A DNA stretch of 64,000 bases from a virus, in IMG/VR virus record IMGVR_UViG_3300043313_001220, positions 1 through 64,000 of that record, one strand, 5' to 3'. Position numbers and translations under genes: made by a program. The notes beneath the pieces were generated by a model. That model was not told where the DNA came from. It did not search any database and saw only the letters and a list, made by a program, of their open reading frames with translations. Shown here one piece after another: positions 30,966-63,050 of the stretch (position 1 is its first letter; the number at the start of each line of letters is the position of its first letter).

Positions 30966-30994
30966 AGCATATCCCGTGGCACATGGGGTGTCAA
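30966..30994 (-). promoter_or_regulatory. leftward promoter for the RAMP-like gene
   Basis: Reading leftward: -35 TTGACA (30994-30989), 17-bp spacer, -10 TATGCT (30971-30966). The element 30988-31005 reads with one weaker half-site. The methyltransferase stop codon overlaps the -35 box. Confidence 0.7.
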
Positions 30995-32090: not shown

Positions 32091-32475
32091 CAACGACCTC
32101 CTTCGGATGGGGCCACATGTGCGGCAGACCGCAGCCTTCGCACTGCGGCGCGCTGCTCGGGCATCCCGGCTCCAGCCGGGCCATCTCCTCGACCGTCCAG
32201 ACCCGCGGGCAGGGGTCGCACAGGTCCTCGCCCTGACAGCCCCAGTAGAACCGGGTCCGGTCGAGCGACACCAATATGGGTGCCCCGGCATGCCACAGAT
32301 CCTCCCAACACAACCAGCCGTCACGGTCGATGTTGAACCAGTTCCAGTTCATCGACGACGGGACGTTGAACCACCGCTGGTCGCCGAGCAGGACGACCGA
32401 GAACGGCGGGGGTGGCCGTGGCACGACGATCGGGCAGGGGTCCAGACCGCAGATCTTGCAGCCCCGGCCTACCAC
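32083..32475 (-). CDS. hypothetical Cys-rich protein
   Basis: A 130-residue protein with GTG start at 32475, overlapping the exonuclease stop. Ten or more Cys in CxxC-like groups (CKICGLDPCP at the start, CQGEDLCDPCP, CEGCG near the end) suggest two zinc sites. Tryptophan-rich middle (WFNVPSSMNWNWF). Function unknown. Confidence 0.6.
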   Translation of the reverse strand: MVGRGCKICGLDPCPIVVPRPPPPFSVVLLGDQRWFNVPSSMNWNWFNIDRDGWLCWEDLWHAGAPILVSLDRTRFYWGCQGEDLCDPCPRVWTVEEMARLEPGCPSSAPQCEGCGLPHMWPHPKEVVGG

Positions 32476-33275
32476 AGCGGTTCCGGCACCGGCTCGGGCT
32501 CAGGTGCTGCCGCTGGGCGCGGAATGACCGGCCACTCTGGGCGGCAATCCTCGGCCCGCGCCAAAGTCTCCTGACGCTTCTGCGGGTCGGTCTCCTTGGC
32601 CGCCTCCCCGCGCAGCCACGAAGCGAAGGACTTCTGCTGCTTCGCCCGCCAACGAACCTGCTCGTCGTGGAGGTCATCCAGTTTCATCTCGGCGATCTTT
32701 GGATACTTCTTGCAGATCGCCCAGGCGACCCGGCCGGCAGCCAAAGCGTCGACCGTCGAGTCGTGGGCGTTCTGGCCGATCTCCACTCTGTAATACTCGC
32801 ACAACGCCCCGAGGTTGCGCTTGCCTTTACGCCGGTCCAGTTCTTTATCTAAGATGAACACATCAACGACTGGCCGGACGCCATTCGGCAGGCGGTCGCC
32901 CAGCGTCTTGATCCCATGTCGCTCGCTCTCGTGGTGCAGCAGAGATAGGTCGTAGCCACCATTCATCGTGACCACCGGCACGCCCTGCCCCATGAAGGTC
33001 GCCAACATGGAGGTGAACTGTTCGATCACCTCCGGCGCGGGCTTGCCATGTTCGCGGGCGCGCTCGGTCGTAATGCCATGCACCGCCGACGCGCCAGCGG
33101 GGATCTCAATTCCCGGGTCTGCCATCCACTCGTAGACCTTCGGCAGCCGGGAGCCGCCTTCTGGTGGCCGGGGTGGGACCAGTATCACGCAGGCGGTGAC
33201 GATGCGATCGTTGAACACATCAACGCCGGTCGTCTCTGTGTCCATAAGGGCGAGATGCCCGTCATACCAGCTCAT
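32469..33275 (-). CDS. DnaQ-like 3'-5' exonuclease
   Basis: A 268-residue protein, ATG 33275. DEDDh signature: MDTETTG at residues 11-17 (Asp12, Glu14), TMNGGYDLSLL (about 104-114, Asp), and NAHDSTVDALA (about 169-179, His and Asp). PAGASAVHGITTERA is also typical. A Pro-rich C-terminal tail of 40 residues follows. It may act in replication proofreading or repair. An HNH gene overlaps its start by 14 bases. Confidence 0.85.
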   Translation of the reverse strand: MSWYDGHLALMDTETTGVDVFNDRIVTACVILVPPRPPEGGSRLPKVYEWMADPGIEIPAGASAVHGITTERAREHGKPAPEVIEQFTSMLATFMGQGVPVVTMNGGYDLSLLHHESERHGIKTLGDRLPNGVRPVVDVFILDKELDRRKGKRNLGALCEYYRVEIGQNAHDSTVDALAAGRVAWAICKKYPKIAEMKLDDLHDEQVRWRAKQQKSFASWLRGEAAKETDPQKRQETLARAEDCRPEWPVIPRPAAAPEPEPVPEPLW

Positions 33276-33876
33276 GCTGACGCTCCCGCTTCCTTTTCGT
33301 GTGGCTTTTGATGTCGTCACGCCCACACGCTCGACAGACGCGGTGACCGCGATAGATCCTCGTGTTCGTCTCATTCCAGGGGTGCCCCCTGGCGCAGTGC
33401 CCCTTGCGACGCCTGTTGCTAACTTGCACGCTGGCCGTAGCCCAGCGGCAGTTGTTGGGGCCATATCCGAGATCGTTGTTGATCCGGTCCAGCGACAGGT
33501 GGGGTGCGGGCCGCCGCCCCATGTCCACCAGGAAGGCCGAGAACCGCCCCCACCGGAGGCACACCGATATGCCGCGCCCCCCGTAGTTGTGGTAGTTCTT
33601 GTTCGTTGGGTTGGTACAGCGGTCCAGCATGGACCACCACGCGCGGTATTCGGGTGTTCCCCACATGCCGGCACGCGAGCCACGTTCGATAGCCAGCTCG
33701 TCATGCAGACACCCGCACGATTGTGTCACCCCCCAGCTACGACACAGAAGTAGACGCTCGGCCCCACAGTCGCATCGACACGCAATGCGGGGCTCATCGT
33801 TGTAGCGCGGTTTGGTCACCACCAAGCGACCAAACCGCACTCCCACCTCGTGAGTGACCACGACCCCTCGACTCAT
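33262..33876 (-). CDS. HNH homing endonuclease
   Basis: A 204-residue protein; ATG overlaps the gp3-like stop (ATGA). N-terminal zinc-like Cys (CRCDCGAERLLLCRSW), then the phage HNH core EYRAWWSMLDRCTNPTNK, YGGRGISVCLRWG and HLSLDRINNDLGYGPNNCRW, and a C-terminal Cys pair (CRACG). It is a free-standing homing nuclease placed between two replication genes. Confidence 0.8.
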   Translation of the reverse strand: MSRGVVVTHEVGVRFGRLVVTKPRYNDEPRIACRCDCGAERLLLCRSWGVTQSCGCLHDELAIERGSRAGMWGTPEYRAWWSMLDRCTNPTNKNYHNYGGRGISVCLRWGRFSAFLVDMGRRPAPHLSLDRINNDLGYGPNNCRWATASVQVSNRRRKGHCARGHPWNETNTRIYRGHRVCRACGRDDIKSHTKRKRERQHELV

Positions 33877-40817: not shown

Positions 40818-41105
40818 ATGACCACCACACAGACCCCCACCCGGCCCGAGCTGCGGCTCGCCGGAGTCCTCCTGCTCGAAACGCTCGTCGAGCGGCTCCG
40901 GGCCCACGGATATATCAGAACCGCCATCGACACCTACACCGACCTGGGCAACCGGCACACCATCCGGCACTCGTACGCCAACGGCGAATGGACCCTGTCG
41001 TGCGGCTACGACGGCCACCCCCGGCTGGAGGTGCGCTATTCGATCAGAGCGACCATGCCGGACGTCGAGCAGCTGTTGAACGCGGTCGTGCCCCCGCCGT
41101 TCTAG
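40818..41105 (+). CDS. small hypothetical protein, leaderless
   Basis: A 95-residue protein with ATG at 40818, 7 bases after the -10 box. Begins with a helix (LRLAGVLLLETLVERLRAHG), then a beta part (HTIRHSYANGEWTLSCGYDG, HPRLEVRYSI). No family recognised. First gene of the rightward right-hand block. Confidence 0.65.
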   Translation: MTTTQTPTRPELRLAGVLLLETLVERLRAHGYIRTAIDTYTDLGNRHTIRHSYANGEWTLSCGYDGHPRLEVRYSIRATMPDVEQLLNAVVPPPF

Positions 41106-41146
41106 GCAGCCCGGTCCGATACTGTTATGCTGGGCGGAAGCAAGAC

Positions 41147-41172
41147 CCCCGGACGGTGCGAGCCGTCCGGGG
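41147..41172 (+). other. 10-bp hairpin 4 bases before tRNA-like gene 1
   Basis: Stem CCCCGGACGG / CCGTCCGGGG with loop TGCGAG. A near copy stands 4 bases before the second tRNA-like gene, so it may be a processing or folding signal of the tRNA precursor. Confidence 0.7.
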
Positions 41173-41176
41173 CGTG

Positions 41177-41283
41177 GGGGCGGTAGCGCAGCGTGGTAGC
41201 GCGGGAGGACGAAGGTGGGAGGCCGGTGCACCGGCACCCACTGGGGGGCCTTCAGGTCGCAGGTTCAAATCCTGCCCGCCCCC
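41177..41283 (+). tRNA. tRNA-like gene 1 (Pro-like) with a 33-base insertion in the anticodon loop
   Basis: 107 bases. Acceptor stem GGGGCGG (41177-41183) pairs with CCGCCCC (41276-41282), discriminator C, CCA not encoded. D-stem GCGC/GCGC with a GG-containing loop; T-arm GCAGG-TTCAAAT-CCTGC; 5-base variable loop. The anticodon stem GGAGG (41104-41108 shifted: bases 41204-41208)/CCTTC encloses 40 bases instead of 7. The insertion folds as GTGGG..CCCAC around a 14-bp palindrome. ACTGGGGG just before the 3' stem looks like the Pro-GGG anticodon. It needs splicing or is a tRNA-like RNA; the exact loop and stem register are ambiguous. Confidence 0.6.
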
Positions 41284-41287
41284 CGGC

Positions 41288-41311
41288 CCCGGATGGTGCG
41301 AACCGTCCGGG
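41288..41311 (+). other. hairpin 4 bases before tRNA-like gene 2
   Basis: Stem CCCGGATGG / CCGTCCGGG (one G-U pair), loop TGCGAA. Same stem, loop and 4-base spacing as at 41147-41172, which makes the two tRNA-like units a duplicated module. Confidence 0.68.
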
Positions 41312-41315
41312 ACAT

Positions 41316-41476
41316 GGGGTGGTAGCTCAACGGTCGAGCACCGCCGTTGTCCGGATTCCTGGAAGCCCCCGGGTGCGCACCCGGGAGTGGACAAGGCCCG
41401 GATGCGGCGGAGGCGTGCCGGTCCTGCGCGAGAGCTCGCGCTACCGGCCAAGCGGGTTCGACACCCGCCCACCCCC
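41316..41476 (+). tRNA. tRNA-like gene 2 with insertions in anticodon loop and variable region
   Basis: 161 bases. Acceptor GGGGTGG (41316-41322) pairs with CCACCCC (41469-41475), discriminator C. D-stem GCTC/GAGC, T-arm GCGGG-TTCGACA-CCCGC. Anticodon stem CCGCC (41341-41345) pairs with GGCGG (41406-41410) but the loop holds 60 bases, including TTGTCC/GGACAA pairing around an 18-bp palindrome (41368-41385). The variable region has 41 bases with GCCGGT/ACCGGC and GCGCGAG/CTCGCGC stems. The anticodon cannot be assigned. Isoacceptor unknown. Confidence 0.55.
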
Positions 41477-41734
41477 CTGAGCGCACCAGCTCAGACATAC
41501 CGTGCGGCGCAAGCCGGACGAGGAGTCGAACGGTGCACAGCGCCTGAGTGCACTCGGGCGCGAGTCGGGAGTTGTCACCCGGCGAGCCGGGTACGGGCTG
41601 GGCCTGACAGACCCAAGCCGCCGACGTACGGGAGGGTGTGCGTGACACCGCAGCGGCCGGCAGGCCGTCCGGGTGAGACCCCCGGCACCCTCCACCCCTG
41701 GCCAGACCAAACGCTGGCTGGTAGGATCGAGCCT
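41477..41734 (+). other. 258-base structured non-coding region after the tRNA-like genes
   Basis: Begins with a perfect 6-bp hairpin CTGAGC-GCACCA-GCTCAG (41477-41494), directly after the discriminator of tRNA-like gene 2. Further on it holds several short G+C hairpins (for example ACCCGGC-GA-GCCGGGT). No third tRNA cloverleaf and no gene were found. It may be the trailer and terminator of the tRNA transcript. Confidence 0.55.
41722..41727 (+). promoter_or_regulatory. -10 box TAGGAT for a leaderless HNH mRNA
   Basis: TAGGAT lies 7 bases before the ATG at 41735, the same distance as at 40818 and 49062. No clear -35 box at 17-18 bases. Confidence 0.45.
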
Positions 41735-42193
41735 ATGGCCACCTGTGTCAACGGACACGTTGACCCACCCCGTTACAAGAACGCCACCTGCAAGCGGTGC
41801 GCAATAGAGAAAGCGGACGCCTACCGGAAAGCCAATCCAGAGAAAAAGCGAATCCGCGAGGCCAAAAGGGCCCGAATCAAGAGGCGAGAGGACCGACATG
41901 CCGCGCTGGCTGCCTATGGTGGTGTCTGTGCCTGCTGTGGGGAGCACCGAGAGCCGTTTCTGGTGCTCGACCACATCAACGGCGATGGCGCGGAACACCG
42001 CCGCATGATGCAACCCAATGCCGGACCCCATGCGCCTGCCGGCTATCGTACTTACCAGTGGCTACGCTTGCGTGGGTACCCACCCGGCCTGCAAGTGTTG
42101 TGCGCCAACTGCAACATGGCCAAAGAACGCGGCATCTGCCCGCACCAAGAAGGAAGTGAGACCCCCCGTGGGATTGCTGCAAGTCATAGTTGA
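41735..42193 (+). CDS. HNH homing endonuclease 1 of a three-member family
   Basis: A 152-residue protein. Zinc pairs CVNGH..CKRCA (start) and CACCG, core EPFLVLDHINGDGAEHRRMM, then LRLRGYPPGLQVLCANCNMAKERGICPHQ. Two further genes in the window (44244-44879 and 58593-59084) share YGGxCxCCGE..FLxxDHIxGxG..GYPxGxQxLCxxCN..G.CPHQ. It overlaps the start of purZ by 26 bases. The Lys-rich middle contrasts with its neighbours. Confidence 0.82.
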   Translation: MATCVNGHVDPPRYKNATCKRCAIEKADAYRKANPEKKRIREAKRARIKRREDRHAALAAYGGVCACCGEHREPFLVLDHINGDGAEHRRMMQPNAGPHAPAGYRTYQWLRLRGYPPGLQVLCANCNMAKERGICPHQEGSETPRGIAASHS

Positions 42194-43241
42194 TGGTCAA
42201 TTCGGATCGTCCGGCAAGGGCGCTGTGGCGGCACACCTGGCACGCCAAGAGCACAAGAGCGGGCGACACGTCGCCGCTGTGCGGGTGGGGGGGCCAAATG
42301 CGGGTCACTCCGCCTGTGACGACAGCGGGGTCAAGTGGGCCCTGCGTCAAATTCCGGTGGCCGTGGTGGCGGACCCGAACGCCCAGCTCTACATCGCCGC
42401 CGGGTCCGAGGTGGACCTGGAGGTGCTGTGTGACGAGGCTGAACGGCTCGAAGCCGCTGGTCACAAGGTCTACGACCGCCTCGTCATCGACCGGATGGCG
42501 ACCGTGCTGGAGCCCCGGCACCGTGAGCAGGAGGGCGCGTTCAACCTGAACGAGCGGATCGGCAGCACGGCCAAAGGCATCGGTGCAGCCCGGTCCGAAC
42601 GAATCTGGCGGACCGCCCGGGTCGTCCGCGATTTGGCCGACGACATCGAAGACGACCGGATCACCTCGTTCGCCGTCGGGAGCGTCGCGGCAGCGCTCCG
42701 CAACCATCTCGCCCAGGGCGGGACGGCCCAAGTCGAGTGTTCGCAGGGCTTCGGCCTGAGCCTCTACCACGAGTTCTACCCCCAGGTCACCTCCAGCGAC
42801 ACCACCACGCTCGGGTTCCTCTCGATGGCCGGGGTCGCCCCCTGGGATAAGGCCGTGACCGACTTCGAGGTCTGGGTGACCCTGCGTCCGAATCCGATCA
42901 GAGTCGCCGGGGCCAGCGGCCCGCTGCTCGGGGAGACCACCTGGGAGGCCCTGGGGCTCGCCGAAGAGAAGACCACGGTCACCCAGCGGGTGCGGCGGGT
43001 CGGCGTTTGGGACCCGCAGTTGGCCCGGGACGCGATCGCCGCCAACGGCGGGGCAGGATTCAATGACACCGTCCGGATCGCCCTGATGATGCTCGACTAT
43101 GTGGACCCCTCGGTCGCCGGGGTCACCGAAGCCAGCGCGCTGACCGACAAGGCCATCGAGTTTATCCACATGGTCCAGAAAGACGCCGGGTCGTATGTCC
43201 GGCTGGCTGGGACGTCTGACCGCACGGCGATCGAACTGTGA
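42168..43241 (+). CDS. purZ: PurZ, adenylosuccinate synthetase-like enzyme of diaminopurine synthesis
   Basis: A 357-residue protein, shorter than cellular PurA (about 430). GTG start at 42168 after AAGGAAGTGAG. The N-terminal P-loop reads VDGQFGSSGKGA: Ser14 stands where PurA has its catalytic Asp (WGDEGKG), a hallmark described for phage PurZ. GPNAGHSA, TAKGIGAARSERI, SQGFGLSL and NDTVRIALM are other family blocks. PurZ joins dGMP and aspartate to give ADAM-dGMP-type succino intermediate for 2,6-diaminopurine. It lies between two HNH genes, with the MazZ-like gene 170 bases downstream. Confidence 0.85.
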   Translation: MGLLQVIVDGQFGSSGKGAVAAHLARQEHKSGRHVAAVRVGGPNAGHSACDDSGVKWALRQIPVAVVADPNAQLYIAAGSEVDLEVLCDEAERLEAAGHKVYDRLVIDRMATVLEPRHREQEGAFNLNERIGSTAKGIGAARSERIWRTARVVRDLADDIEDDRITSFAVGSVAAALRNHLAQGGTAQVECSQGFGLSLYHEFYPQVTSSDTTTLGFLSMAGVAPWDKAVTDFEVWVTLRPNPIRVAGASGPLLGETTWEALGLAEEKTTVTQRVRRVGVWDPQLARDAIAANGGAGFNDTVRIALMMLDYVDPSVAGVTEASALTDKAIEFIHMVQKDAGSYVRLAGTSDRTAIEL

Positions 43242-43393
43242 TGCAGGTCCCGACCCCCCCGTTGGACGCCCCCGCCCGTAGAAGGCGGGGGCTGGCCGTC
43301 GCCTGGGCGATGGTGATCGGCGTGTTCATGCTCGGTTTCTGCTGCGGCGGTGTCACCGTGATCGCCGCGCTCTCATCCGCCCTGTCCGACTAG
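43241..43393 (+). CDS. 50-residue membrane protein
   Basis: ATG overlaps the purZ stop (TGATG); TAG at 43391-43393. A Pro-rich start and RRRR are followed by a helix (AWAMVIGVFMLGFCCGGVTV). It sits between purZ and the MazZ-like gene, so it is co-expressed with them. Function unknown. Confidence 0.52.
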   Translation: MQVPTPPLDAPARRRRGLAVAWAMVIGVFMLGFCCGGVTVIAALSSALSD

Positions 43394-43410
43394 CACAACC
43401 CGGAGGACCC

Positions 43411-44274
43411 ATGCCACAGAACCGCCCCCCGGTCGGGTACGGCCGAACAACAGCTGCCACCGACAAGCCGCAGCCGCACACCTCCGAGTACACGCTGTCC
43501 GAGGACGAAGCGGGGGGGGCGACCGACAGCCCCCCCGCGCTGCTGCTCCCCGGTACCTGGGTGAAAGCCCCCCGGGCCGCGGTGCTCGGGCTCGGGCATG
43601 GCCAGGGCGATAACCCGGCAGACGTTGACGAACAGGCCGGGGGGCGGGTTACACCACCCCCGGCCTCCACGCTGACGAGCGAGGAGACGGCCAACCCGCG
43701 CGGGGCCCTCACCTCCCTGCGCAACCAGCCCCCCCCGGAGCCACCGGGAGAGGTCGAAGAGCCTGCACGGTGGATCGCCCCCACCCATGTGCTCGGGATC
43801 AACGGGGAGCCGCTGCCGGAGGGCCTGCCGCCGCCGCCCCCGCCTCGACCGATAGACGCCCTGACCCAAGCGGTCGAGCAGCTGTTCGACATCCAGACCG
43901 AGAAAGAACTGGACCCGGAACCCGGGCACGGCGGCAGCGAAGAGTTGGCCGCGTGGTGGCATGGGGTGGCGGACTCCGATCTGGAGATGCTGCTGCCGAA
44001 AGCCGTCGAGTACAGCGCCCATGACCTGCGGATGACGGGCCACATCATGGCGGACCTCATGGACATCAAAGTGGACGACGCATTCGCCGCTGAACTCGCC
44101 TGCGCGGTGTACTTGATGTCTAAGGTAACGCGCATTCTGGGGGCATACAAGGACGGACGGCTCCCTGCCATAGATTCGATAACGGACGCTCGGGTGTATG
44201 CTACAATGATGGCCAGAATTCGCGACAGGGGGGGCTGGCCCGGTTGGAACGATGCAAAAACGGACATGGGCTGA
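43411..44274 (+). CDS. mazZ: MazZ-like (MazG-related) nucleotide pyrophosphohydrolase
   Basis: A 287-residue protein, ATG 43411 behind GGAGGA. Residues about 1-165 are a Pro/Gly-rich, low-complexity N-terminal extension. The C-terminal part has MazG-like helices with acidic metal residues: LEMLLPKAVEYSAHDLRMTG and DDAFAAELACAVYLMSKVTRI. In Z-genome phages MazZ turns dGTP into dGMP for PurZ. Its place one small gene after purZ supports this, but MazG-like proteins have other substrates too; the assignment is moderate. Confidence 0.58.
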   Translation: MPQNRPPVGYGRTTAATDKPQPHTSEYTLSEDEAGGATDSPPALLLPGTWVKAPRAAVLGLGHGQGDNPADVDEQAGGRVTPPPASTLTSEETANPRGALTSLRNQPPPEPPGEVEEPARWIAPTHVLGINGEPLPEGLPPPPPPRPIDALTQAVEQLFDIQTEKELDPEPGHGGSEELAAWWHGVADSDLEMLLPKAVEYSAHDLRMTGHIMADLMDIKVDDAFAAELACAVYLMSKVTRILGAYKDGRLPAIDSITDARVYATMMARIRDRGGWPGWNDAKTDMG

Positions 44275-44879
44275 CGGCTGAGAACACCCGTGTCTATGAA
44301 CGGAAGACGGGGCCTCGCGCGGGCAAGCTGGAGCGCCAGTGTGTCGACTGCCAGCGCGAGGCCCAGGGGAGGTATCGGGACTCGGGCGGTCTCGCCGCCA
44401 AGACCCGCGCACGACGCAAGGAAGTCGATCGGTCTGTGCCACAACCCCTATGCGGCTGTGGCAACGGGCGGCGGACACTGCCGTCCACCCGCAACGGCCC
44501 CGGTGCCACGGGCCGCTGCTCGGTCTGCCACCAAGCCATCGTACGCCGTTGGCAGAAGAACAACCCCGAGGCCCACCGCGCTGGCCAACAGCGTCGCTAT
44601 CGGGCACTCATGGACGGCTTCATCACCACATATGGGGGCAGCTGCGAATGCTGCGGTGAAGCCGAACGCCGATTCCTCACCCTCGACCACGTCAACAACG
44701 ACGGGGGCGGGCGCGACCGCAACCAGACTCCCGGCCTGGGCACCAGTACGATCCTGCGCCGCCTGCGCCGGGACGGGTGGCCGCGAGACCCGACATATGC
44801 CCTGGCCTGCTTCAACTGCAACTCAGGACGCCATCTAAACGGGGGCATCTGCCCCCACCAGGAGAGGAACACCGAATGA
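44244..44879 (+). CDS. HNH homing endonuclease 2 of the family
   Basis: A 211-residue protein starting at a TTG inside the 3' end of the MazZ-like gene. It begins ERCKNGHGLTAENTRVYE, with a Cys-rich N-terminal half (CGCGNG, CSVCH), then YGGSCECCGE, RFLTLDHVNNDGGGRD and CFNCNSGRHLNGGICPHQ. The two N-terminal Cys regions suggest a DNA-targeting module. It is followed directly by the dUTPase fusion gene (ATGA). Confidence 0.78.
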   Translation: MERCKNGHGLTAENTRVYERKTGPRAGKLERQCVDCQREAQGRYRDSGGLAAKTRARRKEVDRSVPQPLCGCGNGRRTLPSTRNGPGATGRCSVCHQAIVRRWQKNNPEAHRAGQQRRYRALMDGFITTYGGSCECCGEAERRFLTLDHVNNDGGGRDRNQTPGLGTSTILRRLRRDGWPRDPTYALACFNCNSGRHLNGGICPHQERNTE

Positions 44880-45925
44880 CGACCCCCAACGGACCAGTGG
44901 CCTATATGGCCGAGCCCATCGACTTCTCGTCAGGCCCCAGCACCGACGGCCACCGTGTCACCCAGGCCCTGCCCGACTACGGCGTAGCGGTCTACCGGCC
45001 CGCGACCGCCTGGCACGGTGGGATCTACGCCCCCGGCACCGTCGAGACCATCAACCGCGCCGCACTGCTGGCCGCCGACGTGGTCATCGCCAACCTCGCC
45101 ACCGGCCTGGTCAGCTACGGGACCCCGATGGAGATCGAAGCAGCCACCGCCGCCGGCATCCAGGTGGTGGTCCTGTGGCCGCCCGCGACCGCCCAATCGG
45201 TCAGCCTGCGGGCCAACCCCCGGGTCGCGTTCGTCGCGACCGCCGACGAGGCGGTCGAGCTGGCCGCCGAACTGGCCCAGGCGCACTACGCCAAACGCGA
45301 GATCGAACGGGAGCAGAAGACCGCCGACATCCGCAGTCGGCTGGATGCGCAGCGCCAGCTGCGGTTCACGATGGCGCTCGGCCACGAGGCCCCCCGGCCC
45401 GCACTGGCCGACGACAGCGGCATGGACCTGGTCACCGCCGTGGACACCGTCATCCCGCCGCACACTTTTGTAGACATACAGAGCACCGTTACGGGTATCC
45501 AGATCCCCGAGGGCATGTGGGCGCTGATCACCGGCAGGAGCTCGGCCATCCGCAAGCGTGGCCTGCTGGTCCCGAACGGGGTGATCGACCACGGGTGGCG
45601 CGGCCCGCTGATGGCCGGGGTCTACAACCTCGGGACCGAACCTGTGACCGTCCTGGCCGGGGAGCGGGTCGCCCAAGTGATCCTGATGCCGAACACCACC
45701 GAGCAGGTCGATATCGTCAAGGTCGAACGGCTCGACCCCCACGAGCGTGGAACACGCGGCTTCGGTTCGACAGGGACCGGCCTGGGCGGGGTGATCGGCA
45801 CGATGACACTTTGCTCACCCGCGAACCCCGAGCTGCACGAGCCTTACCGCATCCAGACCGCCGAGCAAGAAGCCGCCGAGTACGCCCGGGTCGACGCGCT
45901 ACAGCCGGTAAACCCGATCGGCTGA
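44876..45925 (+). CDS. fusion of nucleoside deoxyribosyltransferase-like domain and dUTPase
   Basis: A 349-residue protein, ATG overlapping the HNH stop. Residues about 1-135 resemble the nucleoside 2-deoxyribosyltransferase/RCL fold: VAYMAEPIDFSSG, ADVVIANLATG and the catalytic-Glu motif GTPMEIEAA (Glu86). Residues about 165-310 carry all five dUTPase motifs: DSGMDL (180-185), GRSS (220-223), GVIDHGWRG (235-243), GERVAQVIL (262-270) and RGTRGFGSTG (291-300). The dUTPase converts dUTP to dUMP. The first domain probably cleaves or exchanges a base from a deoxynucleotide; its substrate is unknown. Confidence 0.72.
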   Translation: MTTPNGPVAYMAEPIDFSSGPSTDGHRVTQALPDYGVAVYRPATAWHGGIYAPGTVETINRAALLAADVVIANLATGLVSYGTPMEIEAATAAGIQVVVLWPPATAQSVSLRANPRVAFVATADEAVELAAELAQAHYAKREIEREQKTADIRSRLDAQRQLRFTMALGHEAPRPALADDSGMDLVTAVDTVIPPHTFVDIQSTVTGIQIPEGMWALITGRSSAIRKRGLLVPNGVIDHGWRGPLMAGVYNLGTEPVTVLAGERVAQVILMPNTTEQVDIVKVERLDPHERGTRGFGSTGTGLGGVIGTMTLCSPANPELHEPYRIQTAEQEAAEYARVDALQPVNPIG

Positions 45926-45935
45926 GACACGACGC

Positions 45936-45973
45936 GGGCCCGGGACGTCTGAGCGGCTAGACGACCCGGGCCC
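45936..45973. terminator. long hairpin terminator
   Basis: Stem GGGCCCGGG-A-CGTCT with AGACG-A-CCCGGGCCC around an 8-base loop (45936-45973), one mismatch, 10 bases after the dUTPase fusion gene. It ends the nucleotide-metabolism operon. Confidence 0.78.
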
Positions 45974-46260
45974 ACGTACAGCCACGACCCCCCGGAGGTG
46001 GATTGCCCCCATGCTACCACCCCCGGCGACAGGCGACAAGCCAGACAACTGAAACCGCCAGCACATGCCGCAACCGGTGGGCATGTGCTGGACCATACCC
46101 CGACACGCCCGGGGCGACCGTCGGCCTTGCGCCGGGCCGCCCCCGGCAGTACCATGCAGGCCCCCGCAGCACGCACCGCAGTACCGATGAGCGAGGTCGA
46201 TATGAGCCCACCCCCCGGTAGCATGTCCACAACAGACACCAGGCCGGGGGGTGCCCACTG
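45974..46260 (+). other. 287-base gap with possible promoter and leader peptide
   Basis: Between the terminator and the primase-helicase gene. It holds a promoter-like pair at 46127-46155. A short frame (ATG at 46187 or 46202) ends TGA at 46259-46261 with a TGATG overlap to the primase gene, so a leader peptide that couples translation is possible. No larger gene was seen. Confidence 0.4.
46127..46155 (+). promoter_or_regulatory. promoter-like pair before the primase-helicase gene
   Basis: -35-like TTGCGC (46127-46132), 17-bp spacer, -10 TACCAT (46150-46155). It lacks the 12-bp-period element. Distance to the primase ATG is 105 bases. Confidence 0.35.
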
Positions 46261-48732
46261 ATGGCCGCCCCCGTGCCCGCACCGGCCATCGGAGGATACG
46301 GCGAGTGGGCGTGGCAGTACCGCGAGCAAGGGTGGGTCAGTGTCCTGCCGCTGCCACACCGCAAGAAGACCCCCCCGCCGAAGGACTACACCGGTCAGGT
46401 GATCCGGAAGACCGGCCTCGCCCCGCACATCCCCGACGACACCCAGATCGCCGAATGGGTGACCGAATACCGCCGCGGCAACCTCTGCCTGCGGATGCCC
46501 GGCGATGTGATCGGGATCGACGTCGACGCCTACGAATATCAGTACCACGTCAAAGGCGACGACAAACAGCTGCTGTACGACGACCAAGGCGACCCGGTGA
46601 TGGCCTGGGGGTTGAAGACCGGCGACATCACCATTGCGGAGATGGAGGACCAGCTCGGGGAGCTGCCGGCCACCTGGCGGTCATCCAGCCGCACTGAAGG
46701 CGTCTCAGGTATCCGGCTGTACCGGGTCCCGGCATCGATGTCGTGGCATGACGTCGGTGAACATGTCGAGACCATTTGGTGGGGCCACCGATACGCGGCA
46801 GTCTGGCCATCAATCAACCCGGACAGCGACGCCCGGTACCTGTGGCTGGATGAGAACGACCTCGACTCCGGATGGGGGCCGTGGATACCGAAGGTCACCG
46901 ACCTGCCGGAGCTGCCCGAGGCCTGGGTACGCCACCTGTCGCAGGAGACGGTCGTCAAATCGGCGCTGGTCGGGCCGCCCCGGCAGGAACATGCCGACCG
47001 GCCCCGGTTCCTCGGCAGCCACGACCCGTCGAAGCCACGACAGTTCACCCGCCGGCAGGCAGCCGACTTCGTGCAGCCACACCTGGACGAACTGCGGCAC
47101 GCCGGGGTCGGGACGATCAACAACCGGCTGAACGACGCCGCGAAGGTCATCAGCCACTTCGTCCCGGCGGTCTGGCCGGATGTCCAGGCGCGCATCCTGC
47201 TGATGGATGCGTTGAACGCCACCGCCTACGACGGCAAGAGCTGGAAAGCCGACCGGACGATCGAATCGGCATTCGACAGCACCCTCGGCGACTGGCGGGC
47301 GCAGCTGGTGCGGGAGCCCGCCCACACCATCCCGCGCGCGGCCTCCGTGGCCATCCCGGAGCCCCCGGACGGCGACCCGGGAGGTGGGGAGGCCACAGCG
47401 GGGTTCTGGGACGCCCACCCGGTCCTCGCGTACGTCAACGAGTACGCCATATCCTATGGGCGCAACCCGTGGGCGCTGCTCGGGGTGGTAATCGCACGGG
47501 CGATCACAGCCACCGAACCGAACATCCAACTGCCGCCGATCGGCGGAACCCCCGGCAGCCTGAACTGCTTCATCGCCCTGGTCGGCAAGTCTGGTGGAGG
47601 CAAGAGCGTCACCGCGAAGCTCGGACGGCGGTTCCTGGACGCGCGCTACGGCAACCATCCGCTGGAGACGTTTGAAGCACCACTCGGATCCGGCGAGGGC
47701 CTCGCCCACATCTACATGAAGCCCCCACCGGCACGACGCCCCAAAAGCAAGGGGGTGGACGAAGACTCAGCCGCGATCGGCCTCGGCCTGGACGGGCTCG
47801 ACCCGGACCGCCCGATCCAATACCGCACCAGGGCGTTGATCAAAGCGCTGGAGATCGACGCGCTAGACTCGATCAGTGACCGCCGTGGGTCCACGCTGTC
47901 CGCGCAGTTGCGGACCGCCTGGGACGCCGACGAGCTGGGATTCTTCTATTCCGGCCACGAGAAACGACTGCCCACCCCCGAACACGGCTACCGGATGTCG
48001 ATGCTGCTGGGTGTCCAACCCGGCCGCGCCGGCACGCTACTGGACGAGGTCGACGGAGGTCTGCCACAGCGGTTCCTGTGGGTCCCCTGTGAGAACCCCG
48101 ACCTGCCGGAATTCCAAGACGGCGACGAAGACGCCCCGCTGCCCGACCTGCCGTCGCTTCTGTGGACCCCCCCGGCCTACCAGGGGGTAGCGATGGTCGG
48201 ACAGGACCGGGTGGTCCGCCGGGACGTCCGCCGCAACGATCGGAAGCTCTCCCGGGGCGAGGGCGACGCCCTAGACGGCCACACGATGCTCAACCGACTG
48301 AAGGCGGCTGCGGGCCTGGCCTTCCTATTGGGGGGTTCTGCCCAGCAGCAGATGGAGATCACAGCGGAGATTTGGGAGCTGTCCGGGGTGCTGATGGCGG
48401 TGTCGGATCGCACCCGAGATGGGGTGTTGCGCCACCTGGCTGAAGCCGCCCGGGTTGCTAATGAGAAGAAGGGCTATGCGGCTGCCAAGCAGGCGATCGC
48501 CACCGAGGAGGTCATGGAAGACACGGGGATCAAGAAGGCGTTGCGGTGGTTGCGGGGCAAGATCGGGGACGAATGGGTGACCCAGAGCTGGCTGGTCGAG
48601 CAGGCCAAGAGCACCATCTCGAAATACGTGAAGTCAGCGCTCAATCAGATGTTGGAAAACGGAGAGATCGACGCGGAGAGTTATAAGGCGGGGGGTCATG
48701 AGACACGGAAAGTGAGGCGTCGAGAGGGGTAG
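46261..48732 (+). CDS. primase-polymerase / helicase fusion-type replication protein
   Basis: An 823-residue protein, ATG 46261 overlapping a preceding stop. Residues 1-about 330 have the layout of a bifunctional primase/polymerase (GEWAWQYREQGWVSVLPL, IADWV-like WVTEYRRGNLCLRM, VIGIDVDAYEYQY acidic site, SGIRLYRVP). From about 400 on, a P-loop helicase-like part: Walker A GKSGGGKS at 442-449, and a DUF3987-type C-terminus. Such proteins start replication in phages without a DnaB/DnaG pair. A candidate origin lies directly downstream. Confidence 0.72.
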   Translation: MAAPVPAPAIGGYGEWAWQYREQGWVSVLPLPHRKKTPPPKDYTGQVIRKTGLAPHIPDDTQIAEWVTEYRRGNLCLRMPGDVIGIDVDAYEYQYHVKGDDKQLLYDDQGDPVMAWGLKTGDITIAEMEDQLGELPATWRSSSRTEGVSGIRLYRVPASMSWHDVGEHVETIWWGHRYAAVWPSINPDSDARYLWLDENDLDSGWGPWIPKVTDLPELPEAWVRHLSQETVVKSALVGPPRQEHADRPRFLGSHDPSKPRQFTRRQAADFVQPHLDELRHAGVGTINNRLNDAAKVISHFVPAVWPDVQARILLMDALNATAYDGKSWKADRTIESAFDSTLGDWRAQLVREPAHTIPRAASVAIPEPPDGDPGGGEATAGFWDAHPVLAYVNEYAISYGRNPWALLGVVIARAITATEPNIQLPPIGGTPGSLNCFIALVGKSGGGKSVTAKLGRRFLDARYGNHPLETFEAPLGSGEGLAHIYMKPPPARRPKSKGVDEDSAAIGLGLDGLDPDRPIQYRTRALIKALEIDALDSISDRRGSTLSAQLRTAWDADELGFFYSGHEKRLPTPEHGYRMSMLLGVQPGRAGTLLDEVDGGLPQRFLWVPCENPDLPEFQDGDEDAPLPDLPSLLWTPPAYQGVAMVGQDRVVRRDVRRNDRKLSRGEGDALDGHTMLNRLKAAAGLAFLLGGSAQQQMEITAEIWELSGVLMAVSDRTRDGVLRHLAEAARVANEKKGYAAAKQAIATEEVMEDTGIKKALRWLRGKIGDEWVTQSWLVEQAKSTISKYVKSALNQMLENGEIDAESYKAGGHETRKVRRREG

Positions 48733-48737
48733 AGAGC

Positions 48738-48764
48738 ACTCCGGGACTCCGGGACTCCGGGACC
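48738..48764 (+). repeat. left arm of a perfect 27-bp inverted repeat
   Basis: The 27-base arm is three tandem copies of ACTCCGGG plus CC. Its exact reverse complement lies at 48935-48961. Both flank a palindrome and an AT-rich stretch. Confidence 0.9.
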
Positions 48765-48805
48765 ACCCGGGGGGCTGTCTGAGAACGCTGGTCCCGGAGT
48801 CAGCT

Positions 48806-48844
48806 CACACATGGCGTGACACAATCCGTGTCACGCCATGTGTG
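48806..48844. repeat. 17-bp-arm palindrome with 5-base loop
   Basis: Perfect arms 48806-48822 and 48828-48844. The inner part TGACAC..GTGTCA matches the half-site of the promoter element. It could be a protein binding site of the candidate origin or an operator. Confidence 0.88.
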
Positions 48845-48862
48845 GTATGGCCTCTTACCCCG

Positions 48863-48889
48863 TAAAATAGATAAAAATAAATATTTATT
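48863..48889. other. AT-rich stretch, candidate DNA unwinding element
   Basis: 27 bases with a single G and no C in a genome of high G+C, next to the palindrome and within inverted and direct repeats, right after the replication protein gene. Fits a replication origin layout: initiator sites plus easily melted DNA. Confidence 0.6.
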
Positions 48890-48934
48890 GCTTTTCGTCG
48901 TAACGCGACCACCCTGTGCAGAACACCCCCTGGC

Positions 48935-48961
48935 GGTCCCGGAGTCCCGGAGTCCCGGAGT
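48935..48961 (+). repeat. right arm of the 27-bp inverted repeat
   Basis: Exact reverse complement of 48738-48764. The core GGTCCCGGAGT also occurs at 48790-48800 and twice in tandem at 48974-48984 and 48985-48995, so the region is an iteron-like array. Confidence 0.9.
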
Positions 48962-49025
48962 CAGGCCATCGAGGGTCCCGGAGTGGTCCCGGAGTCGCAA
49001 TTACGGAGAGTGACCGACACGCGAG

Positions 49026-49054
49026 TTGCCACGCTGGAAAGGCCGCTGTAGGGT
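49026..49054 (+). promoter_or_regulatory. rightward leaderless promoter
   Basis: -35 TTGCCA (49026-49031), 17-bp spacer, -10 TAGGGT (49049-49054), 7 bases to the GTG at 49062. The element 49015-49032 is CGACAC GCGAGT TGCCAC. Confidence 0.75.
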
Positions 49055-49061
49055 GGACGGC

Positions 49062-49289
49062 GTGACGACACCGAGCAAGACCACATGGGACACCGTCGAG
49101 TTCCGTCTGAACAGAGCCGCCAAGCTGATGTCCGAAGTGGACAGCCTGTTCCAACTCGGATTCGACACCACCGAGGAGGATGCCGCCAACCAGATTGCCC
49201 TTACCCAGCTGCTGGTCGCGGCGGCTAACGCCCACCTCCGGATCGCCGAGATGGAGATGACCGGCCACGCCTTCCGCCGCCACCAATGA
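49062..49289 (+). CDS. small hypothetical protein, leaderless
   Basis: A 75-residue protein. GTG at 49062 was chosen from the -10 spacing. Helical: VEFRLNRAAKLMSEVDSLF, NQIALTQLLVAAANAHLRIAE. It is coupled to the next gene by ATGA. Position next to the candidate origin suggests a replication accessory (inference). Confidence 0.62.
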   Translation: MTTPSKTTWDTVEFRLNRAAKLMSEVDSLFQLGFDTTEEDAANQIALTQLLVAAANAHLRIAEMEMTGHAFRRHQ

Positions 49290-50569
49290 CCACCACCATC
49301 CCCCGGGTCAAGCTCGCCCGGACCTACGCCGAGCTGCCGGCCTACCAGCCCGGTCACTGGCTCGTGGCCGGGACTCCCGGATGGCTGCCGTACCCCTGCA
49401 CCTGCTGGTACGACAATTGCAGCTACCCGAAGTGCCCGGACCGGGGGCGGCCGGAGGGAGACGCCCTGCCACCGGGATGCTGCGGGAGACGCCCTGTCGT
49501 GGCCGGGGAGCGCGCAGAAGCCCCCGCCCGGGGTTCGAATACCCGCAAGGGCCGTTCGTCAACGTGGAAGGCCACGGAGAGCCCCAGGCGCAGCACCCGC
49601 CCGGCGGATCTGCCACAGCGAGCGGTGGGTGGTTCGTCCTCGGTGGCCGGGGATCTGTGGGCGGCCCCGTGGGATGCCGAGCCCGCCCCGTGGGATCTGG
49701 ACGAGCCGGATCCCGGCCTGGGTGGCCCCGACGACCGGTCTCCCGTGGCCACGGAGACACCGAAGCCGGCTCCCGGGCATTCGAATGGGGATGCGGCCTC
49801 TCGTCAACATTCCGAGCCAAGCGACGGACTTTACCCGCACGGCGAACGTCAACGATCGCAGGTCGAACACTGTGCCTGTGTCACACCCTGGGACCCGCCG
49901 CCGCCGGTCCTCTTGGTGGCCGACGCCAAGACGGGTCCGGTCCGGGCCGCGATCGCCCTCGACCTGCGCGGCCCGGCCGGTGACCAGCCACGGCAGGACC
50001 CCCGCGACCTCGCCGAGAAGCTCCTGGCGGAGCGCGGCTACGGCCTGAAAGGCGGCTGGAAGGACGGGCGGCACACGCTGCTGCTGCCGGAGGGCAAGCT
50101 CAAGACCCGTCCTGGTTTCCTGGCCGAAGCATTCAACACCGCCTCCGGCCTGCGAGAGAGCGCTCTCGCGGTGATCGACACACCGCCGGAGCAGGCCGGG
50201 GGGGTTCATTGTCCGGACTGCCACAAGGACTGGCAGAGCGCGGGTGCCTACGGGATGCACCGCAGGAAGGGCAACGGGATTGATTGGCCTCGATGGGCCG
50301 AGCGCTGTGTGGACCCCGCGACGATCCGGGTCGTCCCCCGAAGTGCTGGCGCTAGCGCCAGCATATCACGCCGATCAAGCCCCGGGCAATATGATGGAGC
50401 ACCACTGTTGAAGCGCGGACCGAACGGCGTCTGGCATCTGGACCCGCTCGCCCCGTGGGGTCCCGGAGGCCCGCCGTTCAGCCCCGGGAAGGCGATGGAG
50501 ATCTATGAACGGGGGCGGCGGGAGCTGAAACGTTGGCATTTCGGGAAGGGCCACAACCGCGAGCGCTGA
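49286..50569 (+). CDS. hypothetical protein with Cys-pair zinc finger
   Basis: A 427-residue protein, ATG 49286 (ATGA overlap). Residues about 1-80 hold CTCWYDNCSYPKCPDRG and other Cys. Residues 80-190 are low-complexity Pro/Ser/Arg/Asp. A CPDCHKDWQSAGAYGMHRRKG finger at about 315-335 resembles a C2H2-like site. The C-terminal helix is basic (GRRELKRWHFGKGHNRER). An exact 20-bp palindrome lies in the gene at 50344-50363. Role unknown, perhaps DNA-binding. Confidence 0.58.
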   Translation: MTTTIPRVKLARTYAELPAYQPGHWLVAGTPGWLPYPCTCWYDNCSYPKCPDRGRPEGDALPPGCCGRRPVVAGERAEAPARGSNTRKGRSSTWKATESPRRSTRPADLPQRAVGGSSSVAGDLWAAPWDAEPAPWDLDEPDPGLGGPDDRSPVATETPKPAPGHSNGDAASRQHSEPSDGLYPHGERQRSQVEHCACVTPWDPPPPVLLVADAKTGPVRAAIALDLRGPAGDQPRQDPRDLAEKLLAERGYGLKGGWKDGRHTLLLPEGKLKTRPGFLAEAFNTASGLRESALAVIDTPPEQAGGVHCPDCHKDWQSAGAYGMHRRKGNGIDWPRWAERCVDPATIRVVPRSAGASASISRRSSPGQYDGAPLLKRGPNGVWHLDPLAPWGPGGPPFSPGKAMEIYERGRRELKRWHFGKGHNRER

Positions 50570-50577
50570 CACGCCGC

Positions 50578-50606
50578 TTGCCACGCCCGGTGGCGTGTGG
50601 CAGGAT
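50578..50606 (+). promoter_or_regulatory. rightward promoter at the head of the 1.3-kb leader
   Basis: -35 TTGCCA (50578-50583), 17-bp spacer, weaker -10 CAGGAT (50601-50606). The element 50567-50584 is TGACAC GCCGCT TGCCAC and contains the stop of the previous gene. Confidence 0.6.
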
Positions 50607-51872
50607 AGGGGGACAAACCAGGCCAGTGCGCCTCCCGACTAGCCAGTTCGTACCACACGACAAGCCTGCCCCCCTCGCATCCGCTGCACACCGACAAGTC
50701 GTGCCGCCGCAAGCCCAGCCCACCCCCCGCTCGCCGACACATCTAGCCGTACCACACGACAAGCCTGCCCAGTGCAATGCCGCCCAGCCTTGACGACACC
50801 CCAGACCGACATATGCCCGACTGTTCACATCCACCCTACCGCCGTCCGACACCGCACGCCACACCCTCGCGCTCCGTACGACCAACCTCTCCGAATCTTG
50901 CCGACGCGCACGACATGCCGCTCTCGACACCGCCCGACCCGCACCGACACAGCACGCCGGTCCGACCCAACCGACACGCCCGGCCACCGCAGGACTCACG
51001 ACAGATCTGCCCAGCGCTCACCCATGCGACTACCCGTCCCACAGCTGGTCGGCCCCTACCCCGACACCCGACATGGCCCATCTGTCCCAGCCGCCCGACA
51101 TGCCATCCCAGCCGAGTCCTCCCCGACACTCCACCCTCAGCCGCAACGCCCCGAGACGACAGATCTGTTCCGCCCACCCCATGTGACTACCCTGCCCGGC
51201 CCTGCTCCAATATCGACTACCCGACGCAACCCCAGAGCCCCCGCTGACATATCCAGCCCGCCCGCCCCAGGCGACCAGCCACCCCAGCTCCTGTGTCGAC
51301 AACCCGATCGGCGTCACGCCAGACCCAACCCGACGACAGCCCAGACCCGCACTGTCTTACCCCGTGCTCGGACCGCCCATCCCACCCGACAAGCCCACCC
51401 GGGCCGGTACAACCCCAGCCGTGCCCCACCCCCCGACTACCCTACACACCCCAGTGCGGATCCGACACGCCATCTCATCGCACCGCCGCCGACTACCCCG
51501 GCCCTTCGTGCCCTGTCTCCGACGACCCGTGCCATCCGACAAGCCCAGCCGCGCCGATGCAACCCCACTGCGACCATCCATCCCGCGTCATTGCGGGCCC
51601 GACACGCCATCCCTGGCATCCCCGACCCGGTACCGACAAGCCCAGCCGCCGCGCTTCATATCGACAAGCCGACCCACGCCACCCCGTGTCCTCTCCCGGC
51701 CCGTCCGACAGTGCGTCCCCACGCCGCCCAGTGGCTTCCCCACCCATCCCCCATGGCACGCCCGATCAAAGCGGCGTACTGACGAGCCCGTCCCCACCCG
51801 GCCCCCCGACAAGCCGAGCGAACTCCAACCCAGCCCCTACGACAACCCGCTGGACCGATAGGGAAGAGAGAT
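50607..51872 (+). other. 1.27-kb non-coding tract, C-rich and G-poor, before purB
   Basis: No credible gene. Several frames stay open together simply because G is scarce (no TGA/TAG), and the translations are Pro/Thr/Arg low-complexity. In 51061-51120 there are 29 C and 12 G. CCGACAAGCC-type blocks recur (50659, 50692, 50758, 51388, 51538, 51633, 51662, 51808 within a few bases). A 23-bp block is duplicated exactly (50649-50671 and 50748-50770). A GGGAAGAGAG ribosome binding site precedes purB at the end. Confidence 0.65.
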
Positions 51873-53339
51873 ATGGACAGGCGATACGAGAGTGCCGATG
51901 TCACAGCGATCTGGAGCGACCAGGGCCGCAACCTGGTCGAACGCAGCATCTGGGTCGAGGTGATGCGAGCCCAGCGCGAAGCCGGAATCGACATCCCGGA
52001 AGACCAGATCGACGCGTACGCCGACCTGGCAGCCAGCCAGGCACTGCTGGACCCGGACCACGAGGAAGCCCTGCTCGAAACGCAGGACATCGCCGAGCTG
52101 GAGAGAGAGACCAAACATGACCTGTACGCCCGACTGCGGTGGTTCAACGAGAGTGTCGGAGGCGACCACGCCCACCGCGGGTTGACCTCGGCCGACATCA
52201 CCGAGAACACCCAGCAGATCCAGATCGTCGCCTCCGCCGAACTGCTGCTAGAACACGCTGAGCAGGTCCTGCGCCGGATGTACGAGCGTGCCGGGGTGTT
52301 CGCCACGGTGCCGATCGTCGCCCGCACCCATGGCCGACCCGCGCAGCTGACCACCATTGGCAAGCGGATCACCGACTGGATGCAGGAGCTGATGGGGGCG
52401 ATGGTCACTCTCCAGGGGGCCATCGAAGGTTACGTGCCGCGGGGGATCAAAGGCGCGGTCGGCACCAGTGCCGACATGGCGCGGACGTTGCTGTCCGGCC
52501 TGCCGGAGGGCAGCCCCGCCAGCAGGTGGGTGGCCGCCCGCCTGGCCGCCGGCACGCTGGACGACCGGGTGTCGTCCAAGCTGGCAGGCGAGACCACATC
52601 GATGCTGTCGACCGGGCAGTGTTACCCACGCTCGGCCGACCTGCCGATCATCTCCGCGACGTTGCAGCTCGCCGCCGCGTGCGGCACGGTCGCCACTGCC
52701 GTGCGGCTGATGTCCGCGCTCGGCCTGGCGGTCGAGAACCCCGACGCGCATGTCGGGTCGTCGGCCATGCCCCACAAGAGCAACCCGCGCTACAGCGAGC
52801 GGGTCTGCAGCCTCCAGGTGGTCGCACGCGGGTATGCGGGAATGTTGCAGGAGACCGCCGGCACGCAGTGGCTGGAAGGTGACGTGTCGACCTCTGCGGC
52901 CCGCCGGATCGCCCTGCCGGGGCTATTCCACACGGTGGATTCGATGCTGGCCAACACCGCCTGGGTGTTGGACCATCTGGTGTTCGACCTGGAGGCGATC
53001 AAGGACGAGCGCGACCTGTGGATGCCGGAGATGGCATCCGGCGCGCTGTTGGCCGCACTGGTCGAGAACGGGGTGCCACGTCAGAAGGCACACGAGGTAC
53101 TGCGGCACCATTATCGGCAGATCGGCGGCCCGGACTGCGAGAGCGACCGATCGGGGACGCTGATCTACCACCTGACCAGTGAAGACGCAGAGTTCCGGCT
53201 GACTGCGGAGCAGACCCAGGCCGCGTTCGACCCGGAGATGTTGGTTGGTTCTGCGGTGGCGATCGTGGAGGCTGTGGTCGGTGCGGAGCTCGGCGAGCTG
53301 CTGGATGCCGACCCGGAATGGCCTGGCGACCTGGTGTGA
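51873..53339 (+). CDS. purB: PurB, adenylosuccinate lyase
   Basis: A 488-residue protein of the fumarase/aspartase superfamily with adenylosuccinate lyase blocks: KHDLYARLRWF (81-91), HRGLTSADITEN (101-112), ARTHGRPAQLT (150-160; His153), and GSSAMPHKSNP (295-305), the family signature. It removes fumarate from succino-nucleotides. In the pathway proposed here it finishes dZMP synthesis after PurZ. Host PurB can do this in known Z phages, so a phage copy is notable. It is preceded by a very long leader. Confidence 0.9.
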   Translation: MDRRYESADVTAIWSDQGRNLVERSIWVEVMRAQREAGIDIPEDQIDAYADLAASQALLDPDHEEALLETQDIAELERETKHDLYARLRWFNESVGGDHAHRGLTSADITENTQQIQIVASAELLLEHAEQVLRRMYERAGVFATVPIVARTHGRPAQLTTIGKRITDWMQELMGAMVTLQGAIEGYVPRGIKGAVGTSADMARTLLSGLPEGSPASRWVAARLAAGTLDDRVSSKLAGETTSMLSTGQCYPRSADLPIISATLQLAAACGTVATAVRLMSALGLAVENPDAHVGSSAMPHKSNPRYSERVCSLQVVARGYAGMLQETAGTQWLEGDVSTSAARRIALPGLFHTVDSMLANTAWVLDHLVFDLEAIKDERDLWMPEMASGALLAALVENGVPRQKAHEVLRHHYRQIGGPDCESDRSGTLIYHLTSEDAEFRLTAEQTQAAFDPEMLVGSAVAIVEAVVGAELGELLDADPEWPGDLV

Positions 53340-62681: not shown

Positions 62682-63050
62682 ATGCAAGACCCGACCTGCG
62701 CCTTCTGCCGGATCATCGCCGGGACCAGCTCGGCCGAGATCATCGCTGAGTGGCCGGACACGATCGCTATCGTCCCCCTGGACCCGGTCACCCCGGGGCA
62801 TCTCCTGGTCATCCCGAACGCCCACGTCGAGGACTTCATCCACGACCCGTTGGTTACAGCCACGACTGTTGCCCGCGCCGCCGAGTTGGCCGACAATCTG
62901 CGGATCGACCCGGCGAACCTGATTACCAGCGCCGGGCGGCTGGCCACCCAGAGTGTGTTCCACCTCCACTTCCACCTCATCCCGCGCAGGCGCAACGACA
63001 AGATCCAGCTGCCGTGGCACTCCGGCAAACACGGGGAGGCAGCGGCATGA
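62682..63050 (+). CDS. HIT-family nucleotide-binding hydrolase
   Basis: A 122-residue protein. CAFCRIIAGTSSAEIIAEW, LDPVTPGHLLVIPNAHVED and the signature HLHFHLIPR (HxHxHxx) at about residues 93-101 identify the HIT family. Members hydrolyse dinucleotide polyphosphates or AMP-linked compounds. In a phage with altered purines it may act on modified nucleotides (inference). Confidence 0.85.
   Translation: MQDPTCAFCRIIAGTSSAEIIAEWPDTIAIVPLDPVTPGHLLVIPNAHVEDFIHDPLVTATTVARAAELADNLRIDPANLITSAGRLATQSVFHLHFHLIPRRRNDKIQLPWHSGKHGEAAA

Follow-up and report, generated by a model that had tools for sequence, protein, structure and literature searches.

A basal PurZ0 and a phage-encoded PurB in a predicted diaminopurine pathway of a siphophage-like actinobacterial virus

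Genes for a predicted pathway to DNA containing 2,6-diaminopurine (Z) were analysed in a stretch of 64,000 nucleotides (the window), which corresponds to bases 1-64000 of the 94,374-bp virus record IMGVR_UViG_3300043313_001220; the remaining bases of the record were examined too. Open reading frames (ORFs) for PurZ (42168-43241, + strand), for a middle gene (43411-44274, + strand) and for the adenylosuccinate lyase PurB (51873-53339, + strand) were found where the original prediction had placed them, together with a fused dmtZ-dutZ gene (44876-45925, + strand) that it had overlooked; the gene set observed is not explicable by chance. The Ser-for-Asp PurZ, the intact PurB and the phage context were all upheld, as was a Z-DNA pathway as the best reading; the assignment of the pathway to the S-2L/phiVC8 kind was not sustained, with PurZ in the PurZ0 clade and DmtZ-DutZ nearby.

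PurZ (357 residues, GTG start) contains ...VIVDGQFGSSGKGAV... and was matched to phrog_1211 (2-aminooxy adenylosuccinate synthetase) at 9e-81 and to PDB 7vf6, the PurZ0 of phage Archimedes, at 4e-81, with cellular PurA far behind. Ser14 occupies the position of the catalytic Asp14 (Asp13 without Met) in an alignment with E. coli PurA, as had been proposed; His47 is aligned with the catalytic His, and Asp310 is the guanine-site Asp common to PurA and PurZ0. Ser at the PurA Asp13 position is invariant among 13 PurZ sequences. A maximum-likelihood tree of 23 sequences separates phage PurZ and PurZ0, as a single group, from PurA (support 100/99); PurZ of S-2L, phiVC8 and SH-Ab are a clade of their own (100/99), and the window protein is grouped with PurZ0 (99/99), as sister to the six known PurZ0 (99/98). 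Its motif reads GSSGKG, against GSEAKG in other PurZ0 and GSTGKG in PurZ. The window PurZ is a deep (basal) branch of the PurZ0 clade, not a PurA. It is predicted to convert dGMP and aspartate into N6-succino-2-amino-dAMP, and with the guanine-site Asp310 kept, GTP is its predicted phosphate donor; reportedly, GTP is used by PurZ0, a result ascribed to Tong et al. in 2023. As a separate observation, genomes of Actinocorallia and Amycolatopsis encode another PurA-like protein in addition to the housekeeping PurA; it is highly divergent and sits on a very long branch, and that of Actinocorallia has an FGDSGKG motif.

The fused dmtZ-dutZ gene encodes 349 residues. Its N-terminal part is nucleoside deoxyribosyltransferase-like (PF05014, residues 10-101; below cut-off at E 2e-4), its C-terminal part Dut-like (dUTPase, PF00692, residues 172-300, 2e-24). 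The protein was aligned with those of Ghobes, Archimedes, Wawa, Hiyaa, and Galactica, with residues taken according to PMC12884076; equivalents of Tyr6, Asp12, Pro57, Asn77, and Glu103 of Ghobes DmtZ are all kept. Its domain layout and conserved active-site residues thus give the gene the anatomy of a DmtZ-DutZ fusion. As described in 2026 (PMC12884076), neither DatZ nor MazZ occurs in PurZ0 phages, where their place is taken by DutZ and DmtZ, often fused. DutZ hydrolyzes dATP as well as dGTP; dAMP is the substrate cleaved by DmtZ, which passes the deoxyribose 5-phosphate on to the Z base. The N-terminal domain in the window is predicted to be a dAMP hydrolase and Z deoxyribose-5-phosphate transferase, the C-terminal domain a dATP/dGTP/dUTP hydrolase. 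The middle gene belongs to a family referred to here as MAZL, and the order PurZ0-MAZL-(DmtZ)DutZ is recurrent across PurZ0 loci.

DatZ and DpoZ had not been seen in the window, which holds, but the suggestion that they lie outside it does not: neither DatZ (hmmsearch --max for HD phosphohydrolase; phrog_7076) nor DpoZ/PolA (PF00476; Z-phage PolA profile without filters) was found in the whole 94.4 kb record, and no PolIII alpha was found there either. The idea that the last 30 kb of the record contain a DatZ or another DNA polymerase was rejected on these searches. DatZ or MazZ was present in none of 97 PurZ0/MAZL loci surveyed. A classical S-2L/phiVC8-type pathway (PurZ, MazZ, DatZ, DpoZ), with DatZ and DpoZ beyond the window, would fit a Ser-for-Asp PurZ adjoining a small conserved gene, but is very improbable in view of the PurZ0 clade of the enzyme, the want of a MazZ match in the neighbor of purZ, the presence of DmtZ-DutZ, and a rest of the genome without DatZ and PolA.

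The only polymerase candidate in the record is a primase-polymerase (AEP/PrimPol) fused to a DUF3987 helicase-like domain (46261-48732, + strand; PF09250 2e-13, PF13148 1e-6; phrog_11515, phrog_1156), in which the DxD motif is present. A DnaQ-like 3'-5' exonuclease of the replication module (32469-33704, - strand; phrog_192 6e-33, RNase_T 3e-10) has no polymerase adjoining. Gene content was counted in the 29 PurZ0 contigs with a length of 30 kb or more; 15 of these show no PolA, many of the contigs being perhaps fragments, and two inspected contigs of 43-45 kb without PolA (G025, G042) encode a PrimPol-like protein. Most polymerases accept A and Z without distinction, and a PolA-type polymerase is described in every Z phage except S-2L (PMC8342488); S-2L is the published example of a Z phage whose sole polymerase is an unselective PrimPol (PMC8065100, PMC8342488). 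An unselective polymerase as in S-2L is invoked for the window phage because no DpoZ is encoded.

PurB (488 residues, complete) bears out the predicted adenylosuccinate lyase with its SSAMPHKSNP signature, its start lying 8.6 kb from the purZ stop. It contains Lyase_1 (PF00206, 2e-17) and ADSL_C (PF10397, 4e-10) domains and is aligned over its full length with mycobacterial PurB (4nle, 6e-79); the motifs KHD, TSAD, RTHG, and GSSAMPHKSNP are all kept. Release of fumarate from N6-succino-2-amino-dAMP, giving dZMP, is its predicted role. Host enzymes are described as turning the succino intermediate into dZMP (PMC12884076); since the published pathway usually leaves PurB to the host, a phage PurB is a real addition. 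The window PurB was matched in only 28 of 50,697 phage records, including five from Streptomyces and six from Gordonia phages; these numbers equal the PurZ match counts for the same genera, and purZ and purB occur together in the records inspected. A scan of viral contigs with the window PurB alone gave one relative only. A Lyase_1-family gene (PurB) was found in 19 of the 29 longer PurZ0 contigs, again with many of them perhaps fragments. In a group of PurZ0 contigs of about 37-45 kb, purB is divergent and just upstream of purZ, and no PolA is on the contig; G025 and G042 belong to this group.

A scan of GTDB returned mostly other lyases of the superfamily, and actinobacterial PurBs for comparison were obtained via whole-genome searches. 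The window PurB is grouped with those of Streptomyces, Amycolatopsis, and Actinocorallia (100/99), with the PurB of Hiyaa and Galactica outside; one clade for the window and Hiyaa/Galactica proteins, and with it a single PurB origin among PurZ0 phages, was rejected (p-AU 2e-65), and at least two origins were likewise required in an enlarged tree that included 23 phage PurBs. PurB has been gained at least twice by PurZ0 phages, and such repeated acquisition indicates that the lyase step is worth owning for the phage. A role for PurB that is unrelated to Z, either in AICAR/AMP synthesis or in supplying the infected cell with purines generally, would be consistent with the bifunctionality of cellular PurB and with a jumbo Microcystis phage that has purB outside a PurZ0 context; this is nevertheless unlikely, as no further purine-synthesis gene was noticed in the genome, PurB is rare among phages but common in PurZ0 contigs, and the PurB lineages acquired by PurZ0 phages are unrelated.

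The protein of the middle gene (287 residues; disordered in its N-terminal part, with about 110 residues forming a helical domain at the C terminus) had been described as MazG/MazZ-like, which could not be upheld. The gene has no Pfam or PHROG match; none of 61 MAZL family members matched PF04447, PF12643, PF03819, or PF18909 (MazG, MazZ, and DUF5664 models) up to E 10, and one of the 61 matched DUF6378 at E 0.13. By hhalign, the probability was 0.5% against MazZ and 0.1% against DUF5664 / dGTP_diPhyd_N (PF18909). An identity as MazZ/MazG was rejected after negative results with Pfam, PHROG, hhalign, a sequence search of PDB, and a Foldseek search of PDB; distant homology to DUF5664 was rejected on the hhalign value. 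The MAZL domain is encoded directly 3' of PurZ in Hiyaa, Galactica, Archimedes, Ghobes, Goodman, and Parvaparticeps. In 80 IMG/VR loci retrieved with a PurZ0 profile, MAZL is present in 70 and DUF5664 in 10, with no locus having both or neither; the gene is always on the PurZ strand, MAZL at a median of 78 bp downstream of the PurZ frame end. The ten DUF5664 loci are Arthrobacter-phage-like, and because they represent one host group, the alternation counts as one or few evolutionary events and not eighty.

The MAZL domain corresponds to 43888-44271 of the window, and the Archimedes MAZL protein has 128 residues. The AlphaFold2 model of MAZL is a four-helix domain (pLDDT 85.5); Glu41, Asp46, Glu69, Asp96, and Asp100 (numbered as in the 128-residue model) are candidate metal ligands. 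Seven family members come first in BFVD (E <1e-4); beyond these, DUF6378 and nucleotide-modification-associated phage proteins follow, mostly with prob 0.9-1.0 but E 0.05-1. The stretch K..R...PS-D[ST]..D...Y was aligned by hhalign with the DUF6378 protein of phage 9NA, not significantly (P 0.05). MAZL is best taken as an analogous deoxynucleoside triphosphate (dNTP) hydrolase, or a close partner in that step, and no MazZ; it is predicted to be a dNTP pyrophosphohydrolase-like partner of PurZ0. With PurZ0, DmtZ-DutZ, and PurB acting as proposed, MAZL might instead regulate PurZ0, form one of its subunits, or be an enzyme for another nucleotide. That alternative is plausible but less likely than not: similarity to MazZ, MazG, and DUF5664 profiles was not detectable, no PDB fold was matched, and DutZ alone suffices for hydrolysis of dATP and dGTP (PMC12884076); against it stand the strict exchange, 70 to 10, with DUF5664, a proven dATP/dGTP hydrolase in Wayne, and the resemblance of the predicted fold, outside its own family, to phage DUF6378 and nucleotide-modification-associated proteins.

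Taken together, the window phage is probably of the PurZ0 type, with a Z pathway running via DutZ/MAZL, PurZ0, its own PurB, and DmtZ, and without DpoZ. In this pathway, DutZ, probably with the MAZL protein, would convert dATP and dGTP to dAMP and dGMP; PurZ0 would join dGMP and aspartate into N6-succino-2-amino-dAMP; phage PurB would remove fumarate to give dZMP, and host kinases would raise dZMP to dZTP. DmtZ would destroy dAMP, its deoxyribose phosphate being transferable to free Z base; with dATP depleted, a non-discriminating polymerase (the phage PrimPol and/or the host replicase) would insert Z opposite T, as in S-2L. To judge from the genes, virion DNA would carry diaminopurine in place of adenine. 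Several points weigh against this interpretation: the window DmtZ is without the Trp124 lid (Ghobes numbering); Dut motif 3 is IDHGWRG where IDxxYxG is expected (GVIDHGWRG against GVIDAGYRG in Ghobes, Tyr to Trp), and the substrate preference of the fusion may differ from those of Ghobes and Wayne; the MAZL model has no significant solved-structure match (PDB best E 2.9; 7ody E 9.3); AEP motif II of PrimPol has Arg (SGIRLY) where relatives carry His, which makes its polymerase activity uncertain; and the record is classed as linear in IMG/VR, with a small end gap possible.

The last point bears on the chance that DpoZ is missing merely through an assembly gap at the ends, an explanation that could also appeal to relatives, Hiyaa and Archimedes among them, which possess PolA. 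The 3' end of the record encodes a major head protein and a phrog_779 protein, its 5' end a major tail protein. The capsid module is related to that of Actinoplanes phage phiAsp2 (head protein 54% identical), in which major head, pas15, major tail, and adaptor are consecutive, so that this order spans both contig ends; the contig begins and ends between homologues of pas15 and pas16, which are neighbors in phiAsp2. Little can be missing from the record, because its end genes are adjacent, in identical order, in phiAsp2. The source virus, known from metagenomic data only, is actinobacterial and siphophage-like, and the 94.4 kb record is a nearly complete genome. Moreover, polA is usually a few kb upstream of purZ in PolA-bearing PurZ0 phages, and a syntenic contig of 80.9 kb (G017) is likewise without PolA; loss of DpoZ to an assembly gap is improbable.

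That contig, IMGVR_UViG_3300035092_000015 (80,875 bp), shares with the window RuvC, DnaQ-like exonuclease, Gp3-like, Cas4-like exonuclease, PurZ0, MAZL, DmtZ-DutZ, and PurB; it differs in a TOPRIM/AAA_25 primase-helicase that replaces PrimPol and in the PurB signature GSSAMAHKTNP. PurZ0 phages with DutZ and DmtZ have been described in Gordonia phages Archimedes and Ghobes and Arthrobacter phage Wayne/Wawa (PMC12884076; Archimedes PurZ0 structure 7VF6). Like the window phage, they have a PurZ0 clade enzyme with DmtZ and DutZ just downstream and no DatZ/MazZ, and Ghobes and Archimedes also carry PurB; the window PurZ, in contrast, branches earlier and has GSSGKG, not GSEAKG, DpoZ (PolA) is lacking, and PurB is actinobacterial-type and of separate origin. 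The Hiyaavirus phages of Streptomyces (Hiyaa, Galactica, Keanu, Spocter; 81-83 kb, a similar size) share the order purZ0, MAZL, dmtZ-dutZ fusion, purB, with PurZ 45-47% identical to that of the window; unlike the window, they have PolA and a PurB from a Modestobacter/Frankia-side lineage. Cyanophage S-2L (PurZ, MazZ, DatZ, PrimPol) is similarly without DpoZ and has PrimPol as sole polymerase candidate, and in both phages removal of dATP is the presumed source of selectivity; the window phage differs in lacking DatZ and MazZ, in PurZ0 for PurZ, and in its phage-encoded PurB. The kind, a PurZ0-type Z-DNA phage, is already known; new are the basal PurZ0, the phage's own actinobacterial-type PurB, the absence of DpoZ, and the MAZL alternation.

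More tentatively, these phages may represent a PurZ0 lineage without a Z-specific polymerase, in which Z would be enforced solely via control of the nucleotide pool (DmtZ-DutZ and MAZL, a new dNTP hydrolase family interchangeable with DUF5664) and a phage lyase, with PrimPol or the host replicase copying. If so, the S-2L strategy evolved a second time with other enzymes. PurZ0 phages with repeatedly gained PurB and without PolA would revise the statements on a host lyase (PMC12884076) and on PolA in all Z phages but S-2L (PMC8342488), and would reveal the minimal gene set sufficient for Z-DNA with unselective polymerases. Through its strict alternation with DUF5664, the 'hypothetical protein' of most PurZ0 phages would become a specific, cheaply assayable enzyme candidate.

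The cassette and the rest of the record contain further ORFs. The one small gene announced between purZ and the middle gene is a hydrophobic ORF of 51 residues (43238-43393, + strand) with coding-like codon use, which overlaps the purZ stop and precedes the MAZL gene. A probable homing or free-standing HNH endonuclease gene (44244-44879, + strand; phrog_2255, 5e-11) is inserted between MAZL and dmtZ-dutZ; a second HNH endonuclease-like ORF (40988-42193, phrog_2255) lies on the other side of purZ-MAZL, and the two are possibly homing endonucleases inside the Z cassette. At 62682-63050, a protein of 122 residues (phrog_3962) appears by eye HIT-family nucleotide-binding-like (CxFC...PGHLLVIPNAHVEDF). 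Two glycosyltransferase-like genes (64647-65546 and 67302-68228 of the record; phrog_2170, phrog_14945) resemble the glycosyltransferase/methyltransferase block of phiAsp2. A DNA methyltransferase is encoded at 30991-31854 (- strand; phrog_67), and its target base is of interest in a phage with expected adenine-free DNA.

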